Below, in pieces: positions 4,786 through 32,148 of a DNA stretch of 64,000 bases. The notes beneath the pieces are model-generated. The model did no database searches, was not told the origin of the DNA, and was given only the letters and a program-made list of their open reading frames with translations. The stretch covers positions 217,787 through 281,786 of the forward strand of contig NZ_JAKGUE010000002.1 in assembly GCF_021568795.1 (NCBI RefSeq), written 5' to 3'. The DNA is from Dethiosulfovibrio faecalis. GTDB lineage: Bacteria > Synergistota > Synergistia > Synergistales > Dethiosulfovibrionaceae. Each line of letters begins with the position of its first letter. Positions within the stretch are counted from its first letter, which is position 1. Made by a program: the position numbers and the translations under genes.

Positions 4786-6102
4786 ATGACCTATCGTGTG
4801 GTTCATTACATCAACCAGTTCTTCGCCGGCATCGGCGGGGAGGAAAAGGCAGACATCAAACCGGAGGTCCGCGAAGGCGTAGTCGGTCCCGGTATGGCTC
4901 TTAAAGGAGCTTTCAAGGGCGAGGCCGAGGTAGTCGCTACCATAATCTGCGGTGACAACTACTTCGCCGACAACATCGACTCGACCTCCGAGTTCGTGGC
5001 CGAGACCGTCAAGAAGTTCGAGGCCGACGGGTTCGTCGCCGGTCCGGGATTCAACGCCGGACGTTACGGCACCGCCTGTGGTGCCGTATGTTGCGCCGTC
5101 GGAGAGAAGCTGGGCATTCCCACCGTTACCGCTCTCTATCCCGAAAACCCCGGTGCCGAGATGTACAAGAAGGGCACCTACGTGATCGAGGCCGCCGACA
5201 GCGCTCGCGGCATGGGCAAGGCAGTGCCCGCCATGGCCGCTCTTCTGCTCAAGCAGATGAAAGGAGAGCCCATCGGGAGCCCCGAGGAAGAGGGCTACAT
5301 CGAGAAGGGCGTCCGTATCAACATGTTCTACGAAAAGGTCGGTGCCGAGCGTGCCATCGACATGCTGATCAAGAAGCTCAAGGGCGAGCCCTTCAAGACC
5401 GAGTACAAGCTTCCTGTGTTCGACAGGGTGGATCCCCGCCCCGCCATCAAGGATATGGCTCACGCCAAGATCGCTCTTGTGACCTCCGGCGGTATCGTTC
5501 CTTTCGGAAACCCGGACCACATCGCAGCCTCCAGCGCCCAGAACTACGGCGAGTACGACATCGCCGGGGTTATGGACCTAAAGGAGGGCGAGTATCAGAC
5601 CGCTCACGGCGGATACGATCAGACCTACGCCAACCAGGATTCCGACAGGGTCCTTCCGGTGGATGTTCTCAGAGACCTGGAGAAAGAGGGACGCATCGGT
5701 TCCCTTCACAATCTCTTCTACACCACCGTCGGTAACGGTACGGCCGTGGCCAACTCCAAGAAGTTCGGCGTAGAGATCGGAAACAAACTGAAGGAAGCCG
5801 GCGTAGACGCCGTTATCCTGACCTCCACCTGAGGAACCTGCACGCGTTGCGGTGCAACGCTCGTGAAGGCTATAGAGGAGACCGCCGACGTCCCCGTGGT
5901 TCACATGGCCACCATCGTCCCGATCTCCCTCAGCGTCGGTGCCAACAGGATCATTCCCACCGTCGCCATACCTCACCCTCTGGGAGATCCCAACATGTCT
6001 CCTGAGGACGAGAAGGTTCTTCGTCGTCACCTCGTGGACAAGGCCCTCGTCGCCTTGGAGACCGAGGTCTCCGAGCAGACGGTCTTCAAGGACGAGGACT
6101 AG
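4786..6102 (+). CDS. grdB: Glycine reductase protein B, selenoprotein GrdB (gamma subunit)
   Basis: 438-aa catalytic selenoprotein of the glycine-specific component B. It begins MTYRVVHYINQFFAGIGGEEKAD, typical of GrdB. TGA at 5830-5832 is in frame and encodes Sec349 in TSTUGTCTRCGAT; the reading frame continues without a break to PSEDEK-like C-terminal sequence and TAG at 6100. The hairpin at 5844-5860 is the likely SECIS. The Sec is thought to attack the glycine bound to GrdE and transfer the carboxymethyl group to GrdA. It is last in grdX-E-A-B, 24 bases after grdA, and is followed by a terminator. The paralogue grdH has the same 438-aa length and the same Sec motif. Confidence 0.95.
5830..5860 (+). 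promoter_or_regulatory. Sec codon and SECIS hairpin of grdB
   Basis: UGA at 5830-5832, 11-nt spacer, then a perfect 7-bp stem GCGTTGC/GCAACGC with loop GGT (5844-5860). Spacing and a GGU loop match the bacterial SECIS of E. coli fdhF. Confidence 0.8.
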
Positions 6103-8037: not shown

Positions 8038-8061
8038 GTCTATAGACACTTCGTTTCCGGA

Positions 8062-8192
8062 TGAAGGCAGTGGGAGAGTTCGATATATTCGAACGCCGAA
8101 GGGGCAAGGCTTAGAGCCGAAACTCTCAGGCAAAAGGACCTATGCTGGACGGACCTCTGAAAGACGCCGCCTCGGGGCTGTGCGACAGAGAC
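8062..8192 (+). ncRNA. Glycine riboswitch (gcvT motif) before gcvT
   Basis: The conserved core is GGGAGAG at 8072-8078, CGCCGAAGGGGCAA at 8094-8107 and AAACTCTCAGGCAAAAGGAC at 8120-8139. A single complete aptamer is present, followed by a ghost-like segment ending GACAGAGAC near 8192, the same design as the riboswitch at 1957. The downstream operon encodes the glycine cleavage system, the classic target of this riboswitch class. Confidence 0.9.
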
Positions 8193-15592: not shown

Positions 15593-15621
15593 TTGACATT
15601 TTTAGAACAAGCCTTCATACT
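15593..15621 (+). promoter_or_regulatory. Promoter of the cobalamin riboswitch transcript
   Basis: -35 TTGACA at 15593-15598, 17-bp spacer, -10 CATACT at 15616-15621. The start site would be near 15628, about 33 bases before the aptamer. The 180 bases before it (15410-15592) are AT-rich intergenic sequence that must also hold the promoter of the divergent peptidase. Confidence 0.7.
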
Positions 15622-15660
15622 GACCATGGATATTGGAATTTAACTCCATTTCTCAAAATA

Positions 15661-15803
15661 GAGTCTTTCAGGATATCGGGAAGTCCGGTGTAAAACCGGC
15701 GCGGACCCGCCGCTGTAACCCTGACGAAGCCCTAGAACCACTGGTCTATTAACGACCGGGAAGGTCGGCTTAGGATGAAGGGAAGTCAGAAGACCGGCCT
15801 GGA
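15661..15803 (+). ncRNA. Cobalamin riboswitch upstream of aconitase
   Basis: Core elements of the AdoCbl aptamer are visible in order. They are GGGAAGTCCGGTGTAAAACC at 15678-15697, the conserved CGGACCCGCCGCTGTAACCC at 15702-15721, a GAC...GTC variable arm, and GAAGTCAGAAGACCGGCCTG at 15782-15801. The downstream expression platform is a transcription terminator. The next gene on this strand is aconitase at 16041; no B12 transport or synthesis gene intervenes. Confidence 0.92.
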
Positions 15804-15837
15804 AGGTTGTGCAGTTGGTGGTCTGCGAGTGTTCGGA

Positions 15838-15927
15838 CTTCCTCCGGGATAAACGGCCCTACGTGTTATTAGGGGGCTCGTCTTGTGTTGCCCGAAGGAA
15901 GTTCCGAATGAGGAACTTCCTTTTTTT
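15838..15927 (+). terminator. Riboswitch expression platform: antiterminator and terminator
   Basis: Terminator: GGAAGTTCC (15897-15905), 6-nt loop, GGAACTTCC (15912-15920), then seven T. Competing antiterminator: CTTCCTCCGGG (15838-15848) pairs with CCCGAAGGAAG (15891-15901), using the left arm of the terminator. This predicts AdoCbl-induced termination (OFF switch). Confidence 0.85.
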
Positions 15928-16040
15928 ATGGTTTGGGCCGGATTCGACGTGTGCTTTTTGGGGAACGTCAGAATCGAAACTACTTTTTCCGAAGAACTCG
16001 GAGAGTGTACCGTATAAAGATCAAGAGGAGGGATTTGTAC

Positions 16041-17987
16041 ATGGGAATGTCCATCGCTCAGAAGATCGTCAAAGCCCATTTGGTTGAGGGCGATATGACT
16101 CCTGGAGAGAGGGTCGGCATAAGGATAGATCATACCCTTACTCAGGATGCCACGGGGACCATGGCCTATCTAGAGTTCGAGGCCATGGGTGTGGATAAGG
16201 TAAGGACCGAACTTTCGATCAGCTACGTCGACCACAATATGATTCAGGGGGATTTCAGAAATCCCGACGATCATCGGTATCTTCAGGATGTGGCGGCCAA
16301 ACACGGCATAATATTTTCACCTCCCGGCAACGGAATCTGTCATCAATTGAATGTCGAACGTTTTGCCCGTCCTGGCAAGACGTTGTTGGGGAGCGATTCT
16401 CACACCCCCACCTCCAGTGGAGTGGGGATGTTGGCCATAGGAGCCGGGGGTTTGGACGTGGCCATGGCCATGGCGGGAGAGCCTTTCTATACGCCGATGC
16501 CCAGGATATTGGGAGTAAGGCTTATGGGGAAACTTCAGCCCTTCGTCTCCGCCAAAGATGTCGTATTGGAGGTTCTGCGCCATACGGGGGTTAAAGGTGG
16601 AGTCGGAAAGGTAATAGAGTATTTCGGTCCAGGTGTAGAGAGCCTTTCCGTGCCGGACAGGGCCACTATAACGAACATGGGTGCTGAGACTGGGGCGACC
16701 AGTTCTTTGTTTCCCAGTGACGACGCAACCCGTCGGTGGCTTCGTGCACAGGGACGAGAGGCTGAATGGATAGAGCTCAAGCCCGACGAAGACGTGGTCT
16801 ACGATGAGGTGATAGATATAAATCTCTCCGAACTGGAGCCCATGATAGCTCAGCCCTTTCAGCCGGGGAACGTAGTCAAGGTTTCGGAGATCGAGGGAAT
16901 GAAGATAGATCAGGTGATGTTCGGGTCATGTACTAATTCCTCGCTGAGGGACCTTATGGCGATAGGGCATCTCCTCGACGGCCAGAAGGTAAGCTCCTTT
17001 GTCGACGCCGGTATCTCTCCCGGAAGCAGGCAGGTCTTCATGGAAGCCACGGATAGACGTTCGATAGGGAAGATGATCTCGGCGGGGGTGCGCATACTTG
17101 AGGTAAGCTGCGGAGCCTGTATCGGAATGGGTTTTGCTCCCAATACCGACGGGGTCTCCCTCAGGACCATAAACCGCAATTTCCTTGGTCGCTGTGGTCA
17201 CAAGAGCGGGAAGGTCTATCTCGTCAGTCCGGAGGTCGCAGCTGTCTCCGCCGTTACAGGAGTCCTCACAGATCCCCGTAAATTCGCCGACAAGGTCGGA
17301 ATCGATCCCTTTCATTTCGAGCTTCCCGAAAATCTTGTCATAGACGACAGCCGTTTCATCGCACCTTCCATAGAGCCGGAAAAAATAGAGATACGCCGAG
17401 GTCCCAACATAAAACCCCTTCCCGATATGGCTCCGATGGGGGATGTCACAGAGGGAGAGGTCCTTCTCAAGACCGGAGACGACATAACCACCGATCACAT
17501 AATGCCCGCCGGAGCCAAGATACTTCCCCTTCGTTCCAACATACCGGAGATATCAAAACATGTTTTCGAGGTCTTGGACGAGACCTTCCCTCAGAGGTCT
17601 CTGGACGCCGGTGGAGGATTCATCCTGGGAGGATCGAACTACGGACAGGGCTCCAGCAGGGAACACGCAGCCATAGCTCCCAGGTATCTGGGGATTCGGG
17701 CCGTCATAGTAAAAAGTTTCGCCAGAATCCATCTGGCGAATTTGGTCAATTTCGGCATCCTTCCTCTGACGTTCGTGAAGGAGGGCGACTACGACCGAAT
17801 CGATCAGGGGGACAGGCTTTCCATCGATACTAAAAACCTGAAGGCCGGCGATACCTTCCTTCTCAAGGACGAGACTAAAGGCATCGAGATACCTTGCGTA
17901 ACCCCCGTCGATCAGGACGATCTGGATATCATAAAGTCAGGCAGCAAGCTCAATTTTGTTAAGGATAGAAGCCCCGAAAGGGCTTAA
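16041..17987 (+). CDS. Aconitate hydratase
   Basis: 648-aa aconitase of the short bacterial type related to the mitochondrial enzyme, interconverting citrate and isocitrate with a [4Fe-4S] cluster. Cluster ligands are visible in [10 protein letters not shown] and [34 protein letters not shown] and the C-terminal swivel-domain [15 protein letters not shown] are conserved active-site segments. ATG 16041 follows AGAGGAGGG. First gene after the cobalamin riboswitch; isocitrate dehydrogenase follows 40 bases later, so both should share the B12-controlled transcript. Confidence 0.95.
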
Positions 17988-18027
17988 ACGACGAGAAATA
18001 TATAAATTCATTGGGAGGTCATCTTAT

Positions 18028-19287
18028 ATGAGCAAGTTCTCCGATCTCGATCTGACGAAATACGAAGCTCCGACCCATGGCGACAGAATAGTCAAGAAGG
18101 ACGGCAAGTTCGTCGTTCCCGATAATCCGGTGGTCCCTTTCGTGGAGGGAGATGGAATCGGACCGGATATAACCTCTGCTATGCGTAAAGTGGTCGACTC
18201 GGCGGTAGAAAAGGCTTATCAGGGGAAAAGAAAGATCGCCTGGTGGGAGATCTTCGCCGGACAGAAGGCGATGGATAAGTTTGGAGAAGCCATACCGGAG
18301 GATTCCTTCGCCGCTTTGCGTTATTTCGGCATAGGCATAAAAGGACCTCTGACGACTCCCGTCGGAGGCGGTTTCCGCAGTCTCAACGTGGCCTTTCGTC
18401 AGATTCTGGACCTTTATGCCTGCGTACGCCCTGTAAGATGGTTCGATGGCGTTCCGGCCCCGCTGAAATCGCCGCAGGACGTCGATATGGTTATATTCCG
18501 TGAGAACACGGAAGACCTCTACGCCGGAATAGAGTGGGAGGAAGGCACGAAGGAATGCAGGAAGGTGTACGATTTTCTCACCAAAGAGATGGGAAAGAAG
18601 ATCAGAGAGGATTCCGGAATAGGTATCAAACCCATCTCAATCACCGGAACCAAGAGACTTGTGAGGATGGCCCTTCAATATGCGGTGGATCACGGTCGTC
18701 GCACCGTTACCCTTGTCCATAAGGGCAACATAATGAAGTTCACCGAGGGAGGCTTTCTCAAGTGGGGGTACGAGGTGGCGACCCAGGAATTCAGGGATGT
18801 CATCGTAACTGAGAAGGAGCTTTGGGACGAGCACGACGGGAAACTTCCCGAGGGCAAAGTGCTGGTGAACGACAGGATCGCCGATGCCATGTTCCAGCAG
18901 ATTCTTCTGAGACCTTCCGAATACGACGTGCTGGCCACCGCTAACCTCAACGGAGACTACATATCCGATGCTCTTGCCGCCTCCGTGGGAGGGTTGGGCT
19001 TGGCTCCCGGGGCTAACATGAACGACGAGGTCGCCTTCTTCGAAGCTACCCACGGAACCGCTCCGAAATATGCCGGAATGGACAAGGTAAATCCCGGGTC
19101 CATAATACTTTCCGCCGTTCTGATGTTGGAGCATATGGGGTGGCAGGAGGCAGCCGATCTGATAGTCAAGGGAATAGAGGACACAATCAAAGAAGGTACG
19201 GTAACCTATGATCTGGCTCGTCAGAGAGAGGGAGCCAGAGAGGTAAGTTGTTCCCGTTTCGGGCAGGCTATCTGCGATAACATGTAA
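18028..19287 (+). CDS. icd: Isocitrate dehydrogenase
   Basis: 419-aa isocitrate dehydrogenase, most like the NADP-dependent prokaryotic type, interconverting isocitrate and 2-oxoglutarate. [45 protein letters not shown] (substrate-binding SxNxxxR region), [17 protein letters not shown] and [13 protein letters not shown] are hallmark motifs. ATG 18028 follows TGGGAGGTC. With citrate lyase downstream, the enzyme could run reductively, turning 2-oxoglutarate towards citrate. Cofactor preference is not certain from sequence alone. Confidence 0.94.
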
Positions 19288-19304
19288 AATTCGTTTTTGA
19301 TCGT

Positions 19305-19336
19305 GGAATCCCTTCCGTTCAGACGGAGGGGATTCC
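19305..19336 (+). terminator. Hairpin between icd and citD
   Basis: GGAATCCCTTCCG/ CGGAGGGGATTCC type stem with a 4-6 nt loop, followed by GTCCTTTTATCG. The weak T run suggests partial termination or an RNA processing site, not a full stop. Confidence 0.55.
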
Positions 19337-19371
19337 GTCCTTTTATCGTTATAAAGCCGGAGGTGTTTTGT

Positions 19372-19629
19372 ATGTCGTGTAAACTTGGACAGGCCGGTTC
19401 TCTGGAATCGTCGGATTGTCTCGTTACTGTCAGTCCGGCCGATTCCTATGAATTGGAATGCGTTGGTCCCAACGTTTCCCTTTTCGGCGATCGGACCGCC
19501 AGGGTGGTGGAGGAAATTATCCATCGGTTCGGTAACTCGAAGGTCAGGATTATGATACAGGATCAGGGAGCCCTGGAGGTAACCCTCAGAGCTCGCCTTG
19601 AAACGGCCCTCGACAGGTTTTTCAGGTGA
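19372..19629 (+). CDS. citD: Citrate lyase acyl carrier protein (gamma)
   Basis: 85-aa acyl carrier subunit of citrate lyase that carries the phosphoribosyl-dephospho-CoA arm. QAGSLESSDCLVTVSP places the prosthetic-group serine near residue 10-14, and the ending VTLRARLETALDRFF is typical. ATG 19372 follows CCGGAGGTG. citE starts 10 bases after the stop. Confidence 0.92.
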   Translation: MSCKLGQAGSLESSDCLVTVSPADSYELECVGPNVSLFGDRTARVVEEIIHRFGNSKVRIMIQDQGALEVTLRARLETALDRFFR

Positions 19630-19639
19630 GGTGATCGAG

Positions 19640-20530
19640 ATGGTTAAAGCACAACGTTCCTGTCTGTATATTCCTGGGAACAATCCCGGCATGATCCAGC
19701 ACGCCCCTATCTTCGGGGCTGACAGCGTTCTTCTCGATCTGGAAGATGCCGTGGCCGTGTCAGAAAAGGACGCCGCCCGCAGGCTGGTCAGCGGTTTCAT
19801 TTCGACCCTGGATTTCGGGGACGTGATGGTGACCGTGAGGGTGAACGGAGCTGATACGGAATTTTTTCAGGACGATCTGAGGGCTATCGTACCCTGTGGC
19901 CCCGACGCTGTAAGGATTCCCAAATGTTCGTCTCCCGACGACGTTCTCATGGCCGACGAAGCGATAGGTCTGATAGAGGATGGGACGGGGATGGACAGAG
20001 GAACTGTAAAGATTCATGCCATGTTGGAGACCGCGGTAGGAGTTCAAAATGCCTCCTCGATCGCAAATTGTTGCGAAAGGGTGACGGCTCTAACCCTCGG
20101 AGGTCAGGATCTGACCGCCGATATGGGAGTTCGGAAGACCAGAGAAGGATGGGAGCTTTTTGCAGCAAGAACCCAGGTGGCTCTTGCCGCACATGCGGCC
20201 GGCATCGACTGTTTCGACACCGTGTGGGCCGATGTCAACGATAACGACGGATTGTTGGAGGAGACCCGGAAGGTGGTTGGACTTGGTTTTACCGGAAAGG
20301 CCGCTATACATCCTGGACAGGTCAAATGGATACATAAGGCATTCGTGCCAGAAGAGAAGGAGATTCGAAAGGCCATCAAGGTGGTTAGAGCGGCGGAGGC
20401 CGCCGAAAGGGAAGGCAAGGGAGTCGTAGCGGTCGACGGAAAAATGGTCGACGCTCCGGTCGTGAAGAGGGCGAGACACATTCTTGATATGGCTAGACTC
20501 TCCGGTATGGAAGAGGAGGACCTGAGATGA
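19640..20530 (+). CDS. citE: Citrate lyase beta subunit (citryl-ACP lyase)
   Basis: 296-aa CitE, a TIM-barrel lyase that splits citryl-ACP to oxaloacetate and acetyl-ACP. RSCLYIPGNNPGMIQHAPIFGADSVLLDLEDAV at the start and GKAAIHPGQVKWIHKAF are family signatures; LGGQDLTADMG holds acidic metal ligands. ATG 19640 is preferred to an earlier in-frame start inside citD. The stop overlaps the citF start by 4 bases, suggesting translational coupling. Confidence 0.94.
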   Translation: MVKAQRSCLYIPGNNPGMIQHAPIFGADSVLLDLEDAVAVSEKDAARRLVSGFISTLDFGDVMVTVRVNGADTEFFQDDLRAIVPCGPDAVRIPKCSSPDDVLMADEAIGLIEDGTGMDRGTVKIHAMLETAVGVQNASSIANCCERVTALTLGGQDLTADMGVRKTREGWELFAARTQVALAAHAAGIDCFDTVWADVNDNDGLLEETRKVVGLGFTGKAAIHPGQVKWIHKAFVPEEKEIRKAIKVVRAAEAAEREGKGVVAVDGKMVDAPVVKRARHILDMARLSGMEEEDLR

Positions 20531-22089
20531 ACATGATCCGTAATTCTTTAGGCCGTGACGTTCCTCGTGAGGTTTCAGGTCTCGGGATTATGGCCCCTTT
20601 TCAGGGGGCGTGGGCCAGGGTGGACTCGGGTTACGAGGAGGAACGGAGAGGAGCGCCTCTTAAGGGTTTTCCCCCGGTAGGTAGCAAGGTCAAGGATGAC
20701 ATGAAAAAGGTTATAGAGGCCTCCGGCCTCGAAGACGGCATGACCGTATCCTTCCATCATCACCTACGTAACGGCGACGCCGTGTTGCCCGCCGTTATGG
20801 CGGCGATAGAGGAGATGGGGATCAAGGATCTTGCCATAGCTTCGAGTTCGCTCACTGCCGCACATGATTGCGTAGCCGATTACGTCCGCAAGGGTGTGGT
20901 AACCAGGATATTTACATCCGGCGCCAGGGGAGAGGTCGGAAAATGCATATCCGCAGGTGAGTTGGATATCCCGGTTGTGATACGTAGCCATGGAGGAAGG
21001 GCACGCGCAATAGAGGAGGGAAGCATCTCTATCGACGTAGCCTTTCTGGGGGCGCCTGCATGTGATAGATACGGCAATATGACCGGTGCTATTGGCCAAT
21101 CCGGCTGCGGTTCCCTGGGATATGCCAAGATCGATGCGGCGTACGCTCGTCACGTGGTGGCGGTCACCGACAATCTGGTCGATGCGCCTCTGACGCACGT
21201 GTCCATACCGCAGTATCTGGTGGATCAGGTTCTCCTTGTGGAGAGTCTCGGCGATCCGAGCAAGATAGCCTCCGGTGCCGCTAGAATAACCAGAAGTCCT
21301 GTGGATCTGAAGGTGGCGGAAAACGCCTACGAGTTGGTGCTGGCGTCGGGGCTCCTTCGCCCCGGGGTCTCTTTTCAGGTAGGAGCCGGCGGAGCGAGTC
21401 TGGCGGTGGCTGCTTTTGTCAGAGACTATATGAGAGAGAAGAAGATAAAGGGCAGCTGGGGATGCGGTGGCATCACCGGCTATATGGTCTCCATGCTGGA
21501 AGAAGGTCTTTTCGATGGCCTGTTCGACGTCCAGAGCTTCGACGCCGCCGTAAGAGACTCGCTTTTCAAAAACCCGAGACACGTTGAGATAGACGCTTCG
21601 TGGTATGCCAATCCCTTCAACAAGGGATGCGTGGTGAACGATCTGGACGTGGTGGTACTGGCGGCTCTCGACGTGGATACGGATTTCAACGTGAACGTGA
21701 TGACCGGAAACAACGGAGAGCTTAGGGGAGCATCGGGAGGGCATTGCGATACCGCCGCCGGTGCTAAACTTACCGTTGTCGTGGCTCCATCTTTCCGAGG
21801 GGGAATTCCCACCATAAAGGACGAAGTACAGACCGTGGTGACCCCCGGCGAGACGGTCGACGCAGTGGTGACAGAGAGGGGAATATGCATAAATCCTCGC
21901 AGAAAAGACCTGTTGGAGGCTGCCCGCAGGGCCCGGTTGAACGTGAAGGATATTCACGATCTCAAGACGGAGGTCGAGAAAATGACCGGAATTCCGTCGA
22001 AACCGGATTTCGACCGGTCAAAGGTCGTAGCCCTTGTGGAGTACAGGGACGGCACGATTATAGACAGCATTTATAAGTTGCGTAGTTAA
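20527..22089 (+). CDS. citF: Citrate lyase alpha subunit (citrate:acetyl-ACP transferase)
   Basis: 520-aa CitF, which exchanges the acetyl group on CitD for citrate. It starts MNMIRNSLGRDVPREVSGLG and contains TVSFHHHLRNGDAVLPAVM, SHGGRARAIEEG and LRGASGGHCDTAAGAKLTVVVAP, all typical. Completes the three structural subunits. The activation genes citC (ligase), citX and citG are not in this window. A strong terminator follows. Confidence 0.95.
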   Translation: MNMIRNSLGRDVPREVSGLGIMAPFQGAWARVDSGYEEERRGAPLKGFPPVGSKVKDDMKKVIEASGLEDGMTVSFHHHLRNGDAVLPAVMAAIEEMGIKDLAIASSSLTAAHDCVADYVRKGVVTRIFTSGARGEVGKCISAGELDIPVVIRSHGGRARAIEEGSISIDVAFLGAPACDRYGNMTGAIGQSGCGSLGYAKIDAAYARHVVAVTDNLVDAPLTHVSIPQYLVDQVLLVESLGDPSKIASGAARITRSPVDLKVAENAYELVLASGLLRPGVSFQVGAGGASLAVAAFVRDYMREKKIKGSWGCGGITGYMVSMLEEGLFDGLFDVQSFDAAVRDSLFKNPRHVEIDASWYANPFNKGCVVNDLDVVVLAALDVDTDFNVNVMTGNNGELRGASGGHCDTAAGAKLTVVVAPSFRGGIPTIKDEVQTVVTPGETVDAVVTERGICINPRRKDLLEAARRARLNVKDIHDLKTEVEKMTGIPSKPDFDRSKVVALVEYRDGTIIDSIYKLRS

Positions 22090-22108: not shown

Positions 22109-22144
22109 AAAAGGCAGGTCGGAAATTTTTCCGACCTGCCTTTT
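22109..22144 (+). terminator. Intrinsic terminator of the acn-icd-cit transcript
   Basis: AAAAGGCAGGTCGGAAA/TTTCCGACCTGCC stem followed by TTTT, 20 bases after the citF stop. Confidence 0.88.
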
Positions 22145-30831: not shown

Positions 30832-32148
30832 TCAGAGTTTAGTCGGGTAGACCTTGGGTTCCTGGATCTCGTCGGTGAGAGAGTCCAGAGCGATGCCGAC
30901 CCTGTGTTTCCTCAGGGCCCATTCGTCCTCGGGGCTCATCTCCGGGTCCCCGAGGGGGTAGGGGACCGACACTGTCTGTACCATCCTGTTGGATCCCACG
31001 GTCTTGGCCACGTCGATTAAGTTGCACATTACCACGACCGGGATTCCGGAGCGCTCTATCTCTTTTCCCATCGTTGCACCGCAACGAGTGCAGGTGCCTC
31101 AGGTGGAGGTCAGGACCACCGCGTCGACCCCGGCATCCTTAAGCTCCTGGGCGATCTCCTTGCCGAACTTGGCGGCGTAGGCCTGGGTTGTTCCCGTTCC
31201 TACAGTTACGTAATAGTGGTCGAACAGCTTGCCGAATTTACCCTCGCTCTCCCAGTGTCTCATGGCGTCGACCGGGACACCACGGTCGGGGACGGCGCAC
31301 ATGGCGGCGGGGTCGAATCCGGCGTGGATGGTCTTGAACACTCCTTCTGGGAGTTTATCCAGCTTGGATATGTCGTATTTTCCCCACTTGGTGGCGGATG
31401 CCGACTGTATCCGATCGGGGTTCTCCACCGGGACGACTCCGCTGGAGGACACCAGGGCGATGGTCGCCTTGCTCAGGTCCTTGAGAGGCGTTGCCGGAGG
31501 AATCTTGTCCATCTTGGGGATAACCAGTTCGCTGGTGAAGCTTTCCCCTCCGAGTTTCTTGATGAGCATGTCCACCACTCGGTCAGAGGCCAACCTGCCC
31601 TCCGGATGGGGCATCTCGAAACGGACTCCTCTGGGGAAGTAGCCTTCCTCCGAGGCGGGCTTGAGAGATTCTCCTTTGGCTATCTTCTCAGCGAAAGTGG
31701 CCATCTTCCCCATGTCTTCCTTCATGAAGGTGGCCTTTCTGCCGCCATGGAAGACGTAGGCCTCAGACTTGAACTGCTCTACCCCGGGATTCTCCTCGTT
31801 CATGGAGGTTATGACCGGTACGTCGAATCTCTCCTTGACGGCCTTGCATACCAGGCCACAGCCCACTCCGTATCTTCCTGCCATGAAGGCTGGTCCGGCG
31901 AAGAATATGTCGAACTCCTGCTTCTCGAGCCACGACATGATCTCTCCGAGGGCCTCGTCGGTGTGTCCGGTCACGTAGTTGTCACCGCAGACGACGGTGT
32001 GGGTAACCTCTACGTCTGGCATCATCTGGTTAAGCATGTTGGAGCATCCTACCAGCTCGGAATGGAAGCTGGGCTTGGAGTCGGCGGCTTCCTCGCCTCC
32101 GACCTGACCAAAAAACTGGTTTATGTAGTGAATTGCTTTCAGCGCCAT
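30832..32148 (-). CDS. grdH: Betaine reductase protein B, selenoprotein GrdH
   Basis: 438-aa selenoprotein paralogous to GrdB. TGA at 31099-31101 encodes Sec350 in TSTUGTCTRCGAT, and the frame continues through PYPLGDPEMSPEDEWALRKH to TGA at 30832. A conventional call would stop at 31099. ATG 32148 is chosen over an in-frame GTG at 32157, because the Shine-Dalgarno AAGGGG then has proper spacing and the length equals GrdB. It lies 12 bases after grdI. Assignment to betaine instead of sarcosine rests on the uncleaved partner GrdI and the BCCT carrier next door. Confidence 0.88.
31072..31101 (-). promoter_or_regulatory. Sec codon and SECIS hairpin of grdH
   Basis: UGA (31101-31099), 12-nt spacer, stem CGTTGC/GCAACG with loop GGT (31086-31072), almost identical to the element in grdB. 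Confidence 0.8.

Follow-up and report, generated by a model that had tools for sequence, protein, structure and literature searches.

The acn-icd-citDEF operon and its leader

The window analysed here, a stretch of 64,000 nucleotides from the amino-acid-fermenting bacterium Dethiosulfovibrio faecalis (contig NZ_JAKGUE010000002.1, positions 217,787 to 281,786), contains a cobalamin riboswitch positioned directly before genes for aconitase, isocitrate dehydrogenase and citrate lyase. The features of the leader and of the operon, in window coordinates, are as follows.

15593-15621, plus strand: sigma-70-like promoter, TTGACA-17-CATACT
15653-15816, plus strand: cobalamin (Cbl-I type) riboswitch aptamer (Rfam RF00174, 92.7 bits, E 1e-21)
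15821-15838, plus strand: core of the P13 hairpin, GTCTG-CGAGTGTT-CGGAC, the loop of which is predicted to kiss L5
15835-15848, plus strand: 5' arm of the antiterminator, overlapping the 3' strand of P13
15891-15905, plus strand: 3' arm of the antiterminator, overlapping the 5' arm of the terminator
15894-15923, plus strand: intrinsic terminator stem-loop (-18.2 kcal/mol) followed by a T run
16041-17987, plus strand: acn, aconitate hydratase (NCBIfam NF005558, 937.7 bits, cut-off 612)
18028-19287, plus strand: icd, NADP-dependent isocitrate dehydrogenase (TIGR00183, 659 bits, cut-off 567; start codon assigned by reading)
19303-19338, plus strand: strong hairpin with a short T tract in the icd-citD spacer, a possible attenuator
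19372-19629, plus strand: citD, citrate lyase acyl carrier protein (Pfam PF06857, 73 bits)
19640-20530, plus strand: citE, citrate lyase beta subunit (TIGR01588, 331 bits, below the cut-off of 443; passes PF03328, HpcH_HpaI)
20527-22089, plus strand: citF, citrate lyase alpha subunit (TIGR01584, 636 bits, cut-off 501)
22109-22144, no strand assigned: hairpin resembling a terminator at the end of the operon; its score is for the minus strand, its inverted repeat being symmetrical

A first-pass annotation of this DNA had described a complete B12 aptamer, and the match to RF00174 agrees, exceeding the gathering threshold of 31.5 bits and covering all of the model positions from 1 to 189. The aptamer starts approximately 30 bases 3' of the promoter; the same hexamers with the same 17-nucleotide spacing are found 5' of the first aptamer in Synergistota bacterium L-13 (G021; L043). 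The P13 hairpin lies 3' of the aptamer and its pairs are maintained by compensatory changes among the 33 leaders compared. The antiterminator and terminator that had been proposed are both present 5' of acn, and the antiterminator duplex has an energy of -27.3 kcal/mol compared with a mean of -11.2 for shuffled sequences, none of 500 shuffles being equally good. The same annotation had named an acn promoter beyond the terminator as a point that would count against it; the interval from the terminator to acn (15928-16041) was found to contain no promoter-like site.

The operon consists of acn, icd, citD, citE and citF and, as had been noted, includes no B12-related gene. The citD product passes the Pfam acyl carrier protein family but scores under two NCBIfam cut-offs (61.3 against 65 bits and 54.8 against 63.5 bits). 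The hairpin between icd and citD, previously called weak, has a strong stem of 16 pairs and only its U tract (CCTTTT) is poor. A strong stem with a poor U tract makes control of citDEF by the riboswitch likely but not certain; the order from riboswitch through acn and icd to citDEF is as first described, while the co-control of the lyase genes is what we infer across this stem. Strong hairpins of differing sequence also occupy the icd-citD spacer in G018, G123 and G023, and may act as attenuators or as sites of mRNA processing.

Predicted switching by corrinoid

In cobalamin riboswitches the kissing loop between L5 and L13 reports the bound state (PMC9600662). Since the 5' arm of the antiterminator overlaps P13, which ligand would stabilise, transcription is predicted to be switched off by corrinoid. 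When corrinoid is plentiful, P13 would be held in place by the occupied aptamer and the L5-L13 contact, leaving the antiterminator arm unavailable so that the terminator stops transcription, while with little corrinoid the antiterminator would form and the operon would be transcribed. In a transcript ending at the terminator loop, the computed probability of the antiterminator is 0.92, falling to 0.58 when P13 is held, at a cost of 12.9 kcal/mol. The riboswitch before acn is thus predicted to be of the transcriptional OFF type, as the first-pass annotation had proposed: a terminator precedes acn, and the antiterminator can form together with neither P13 nor this terminator. Strong antiterminators, by the same comparison with shuffled sequences, are also present in the acn leaders of G021b, G123 and G173. 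The opposite logic, in which B12 would activate the operon, would be the simplest for copies of this riboswitch that precede the B12-dependent mutase genes mutAB (see below), but P13, which in known cobalamin riboswitches becomes more stable on ligand binding, shares its sequence with the antiterminator rather than with the terminator arm, and we regard an ON switch at acn as highly improbable.

Distribution in the Synergistota and the source of citrate

To judge from 188 genomes of the phylum, in which acn homologs are present in 41, the arrangement is conserved, as the first-pass annotation had suggested should be checked. RF00174 lies immediately 5' of acn and on the same strand in eight genomes from four families (G000, the window's own genome, G018, G021, G022, G123, G173, G174 and G175). 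In all eight acn is followed by icd and citDEF, except in G174 where the contig ends after icd. In both G021 (L043:729-1250) and G022 (L044:3680-4146) two complete aptamer-terminator units stand in tandem before acn. The riboswitch-bearing acn genes occupy a single part of the acn tree; nested among them are two acn that lack a riboswitch, that of G023 and the second copy of G021. For acn relatives outside the Synergistota (L162-L234), no cobalamin motif was found nearby using a regular expression that recovers four of the six known sites in the window's own genome, and this absence is therefore indicative at most.

Synergistota bacterium L-13 (G021; L140, L151) has two copies of acn-icd-citDEF with different acn paralogs, of which only one carries riboswitches. 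The identical 209-nucleotide icd-citD spacer of these copies suggests a recent duplication or gene conversion. In Synergistaceae bacterium UBA5560 (G018; L045/L089) mutAB-meaB and acn-icd-citDEF lie side by side in divergent orientation, and a separate riboswitch precedes each.

The direction in which the operon would run depends on where its citrate comes from. No citrate synthase (PF00285) was found in the window's own genome and no full-length one in the other seven genomes with the acn riboswitch; among the eight, partial-length matches to the C-terminal part of the profile occur only in G123 and G173-G175. We take these short proteins to resemble citryl-CoA lyases. Nor does any of the four PF00682 proteins of the window's genome, which by reading are LeuA, two HMG-CoA-lyase-like proteins and OadA/PycB, appear to be a Re-citrate synthase. 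No citrate synthase was therefore found to feed aconitase, as it would in an oxidative branch of the tricarboxylic acid cycle, and citrate could come only from 2-oxoglutarate or by import. The operon has no adjoining importer, so that its citrate would come from 2-oxoglutarate. It is accordingly most likely, on the gene content, that the operon runs from 2-oxoglutarate to citrate and on to acetate and oxaloacetate. This route had been put forward in the first-pass annotation, and with citrate synthase absent it is the best available reading.

It could instead be that acn and icd work oxidatively, making 2-oxoglutarate for glutamate synthesis from citrate that is imported or made by an unrecognised synthase, and that B12 switches them off as the mutase can supply succinyl-CoA and hence 2-oxoglutarate. 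The icd product is of the NADP type and above its cut-off, and a TctABC cluster elsewhere in the genome could import citrate; the lack of a full-length synthase in all eight genomes and of a Re-synthase candidate in this one, together with the citrate lyase genes standing next in the same cluster, makes this quite unlikely.

That the operon degrades imported citrate, isocitrate or aconitate, with the riboswitch as a secondary economy measure, would fit the related riboswitch-less clusters of G182, G020, G015 and G113, which adjoin TctABC importers. None of the riboswitch-bearing clusters does so, however. The genome moreover has a separate cluster of TctABC with citE and citF, together with citC (citrate lyase ligase) and citG (L241; G000:C9:1-9000), which presumably serves imported tricarboxylates, and A. 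paucivorans, which G123 fits, grows neither on citrate nor on 2-oxoglutarate (PMC3035310). We consider degradation of imported substrates very unlikely.

In the preferred direction, 2-oxoglutarate derived from glutamate would be reductively carboxylated to isocitrate and converted to citrate, which citrate lyase would split into acetate and oxaloacetate. In G021 and G022 oadA lies 3' of citF. The chemistry matches citrate cleavage of the type found in the reductive tricarboxylic acid cycle, where an enzyme that splits citrate follows isocitrate dehydrogenase and aconitase operating in reverse, although the bacterial citrate lyase CitDEF releases acetate in free form and the proposed use is in glutamate fermentation rather than CO2 fixation. 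Together with glutamate dehydrogenase and oxaloacetate decarboxylation, the route would convert glutamate to acetate and pyruvate with redox balance, bypassing without B12 the B12-dependent path through succinyl-CoA and methylmalonyl-CoA to propionate. The products would equal those of the methylaspartate pathway of glutamate fermentation, which also gives acetate and pyruvate and is redox neutral but needs the B12-dependent glutamate mutase. Of the two B12-dependent alternatives that the first-pass annotation had named, glutamate mutase is without an E subunit in the window's genome; methylmalonyl-CoA mutase is present in two operons.

B12-dependent mutases and glutamate fermentation

Including that of the window, the genome has six cobalamin riboswitches. 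Three precede genes for the acquisition of cobalt/nickel or B12, namely an Opp/Nik-type ABC system, a TonB-B12 receptor locus and, by reading, cbiK with BtuFCD-like genes. The remaining two lie before mutA-mutB-meaB (L007:5166-5329; G000:C5:66165-66328) and before the succinate CoA-transferase gene scpC (TIGR03458, above cut-off). RF00174 is found just 5' of mutA in 23 of the 27 mutA loci of relatives that were scanned, and directly 5' of scpC in five relatives, all from the family of the window's organism. The mutA leaders have an OFF layout, with a common L13, CGCGGG, and with CCGCCCGC in most of the terminators. The scpC antiterminators are not clearly above shuffled sequences, 50-194 of 500 being as good, which leaves the switch logic at scpC less certain.

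An ON reading of the mutAB riboswitches was considered and rejected: the antiterminator arm consists of the P13 loop and 3' strand, and GCGGGCGG pairs with CCGCCCGC of the terminator. By eye, this placement matches that in the cbiK leader, where an OFF switch is expected. For OFF control of a B12-dependent mutase there is an experimental precedent in the mutA riboswitch of V. parvula, which is among those that repress a reporter (Kennedy 2022, PMC9600662), in a set where intrinsic terminators are predicted for 37 of 38. It likewise precedes a methylmalonyl-CoA mutase gene and responds to corrinoid with repression, although it belongs to another phylum, its target is B12-dependent and acn-icd-cit is not involved.

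The second mutase operon of the window's genome, mcmA1A2-meaB-mmdADCB (the mmd genes assigned by reading), had no riboswitch within the stretch searched, and it is a better candidate than mutAB for the B12-replete route. Every genome with an acn riboswitch encodes a mutase, either McmA1 or MutAB. A B12-dependent path that the bypass might replace is thus present in the genome, as mutAB-meaB and mcmA1A2-meaB-mmd, the role of these mutases as its functional counterpart being our reading of the gene content.

The first-pass annotation had taken the switch simply to select either the B12-dependent or the B12-free catabolism. With mutAB itself under OFF-type control, B12 would not simply turn the mutase on and the bypass off, and that view needs amending. 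OFF riboswitches on a B12-dependent mutase across genomes of the Synergistota group constitute an apparent paradox. The best account is a response to low B12 in which one mutase isozyme would be raised and a bypass free of B12 would be opened. We lean, if only slightly, towards an adenosylcobalamin (AdoCbl) OFF riboswitch on acn-icd, and probably on citDEF, that would open this bypass while the same signal also raised the isozyme MutAB-MeaB and succinate CoA-transferase.

Several observations weigh against this account. The strong hairpin that follows icd may free citDEF from control by the riboswitch, and the antiterminators of G174 and G021a are not clearly above shuffled sequences. For the full leader at equilibrium the terminator has a probability of 0.83 when free and 0.94 with P13 held; as it dominates in either case, switching would have to be kinetic. 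The OFF architecture at mutAB also means that the cofactor logic is no clean either/or. Finally, extracts of T. acidaminovorans (PMC3035242), the organism of G173, gave no detectable isocitrate dehydrogenase. The missing activity is ambiguous, since the enzyme may have been repressed by B12 that the medium contained or icd may be unused, and it is the most useful existing clue.

The same extracts contained citrate lyase, beta-methylaspartase was not detected, and the organism ferments glutamate to acetate and propionate (PMC3035242). A. paucivorans forms acetate, formate and trace propionate from glutamate, and propionate with a methanogen partner (PMC3035310).

A general low-corrinoid response, in which free AdoCbl represses mutAB, scpC and acn-icd around succinyl-CoA and 2-oxoglutarate to keep fluxes in balance and no B12 enzyme is specifically replaced, would account for the riboswitches on mutAB-meaB, where the OFF architecture is clear, and on scpC, and would be in keeping with the reporter repression in V. 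parvula (PMC9600662). The acn riboswitches occur, however, also in G123 and G173-G175, where no mutAB was found, so that the link to acn is independent of mutAB, and we think a purely general response unlikely.

The metabolic targets known for cobalamin riboswitches are chiefly the synthesis and uptake of B12, the transport of cobalt and individual replacement isozymes. B12-independent replacement enzymes form a named category of these targets (PMC3766115), with metE and nrdD as cited cases (PMC8620254). The acn riboswitch resembles those of metE and nrdD in its aptamer class, RF00174, in its predicted OFF logic and in that its target would do the job of a B12 enzyme without B12; it differs in that the target would be a five-gene route through citrate in central carbon and fermentation metabolism rather than an isozyme of the B12 enzyme. 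In line with the statement in the first-pass annotation that no example was known, the open-licence papers searched yielded none in which a cobalamin riboswitch controls aconitase, icd or citrate lyase. The locus would then be a conserved case in which B12 controls an entire bypass in central carbon metabolism, in a group that includes T. acidaminovorans and A. paucivorans, for both of which the physiology of fermentation has been published, and the prediction is that B12 supply decides between acetate and propionate from glutamate. More tentatively, a whole fermentation route may be switched by a B12-sensing RNA, comprising a five-gene bypass with the stoichiometry of the methylaspartate pathway and the derepression of a second mutase isozyme suited to scarce corrinoid, with the corrinoid of neighbouring organisms setting propionate against acetate. 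The unexplained OFF-type riboswitches on the B12-dependent mutAB become a phylum-wide question.

Further RNA elements were seen in the genome. A TwoAYGGAY RNA (50.2 bits; L154:1870-2021, G000:C3) lies approximately 2.5 kb from a B12-binding aminomutase-like gene. Within the window there are two glycine riboswitches (1959-2072 and 8061-8151), together with glycine-cleavage-type genes, and two SECIS_4 elements (5833-5870 and 31061-31098).

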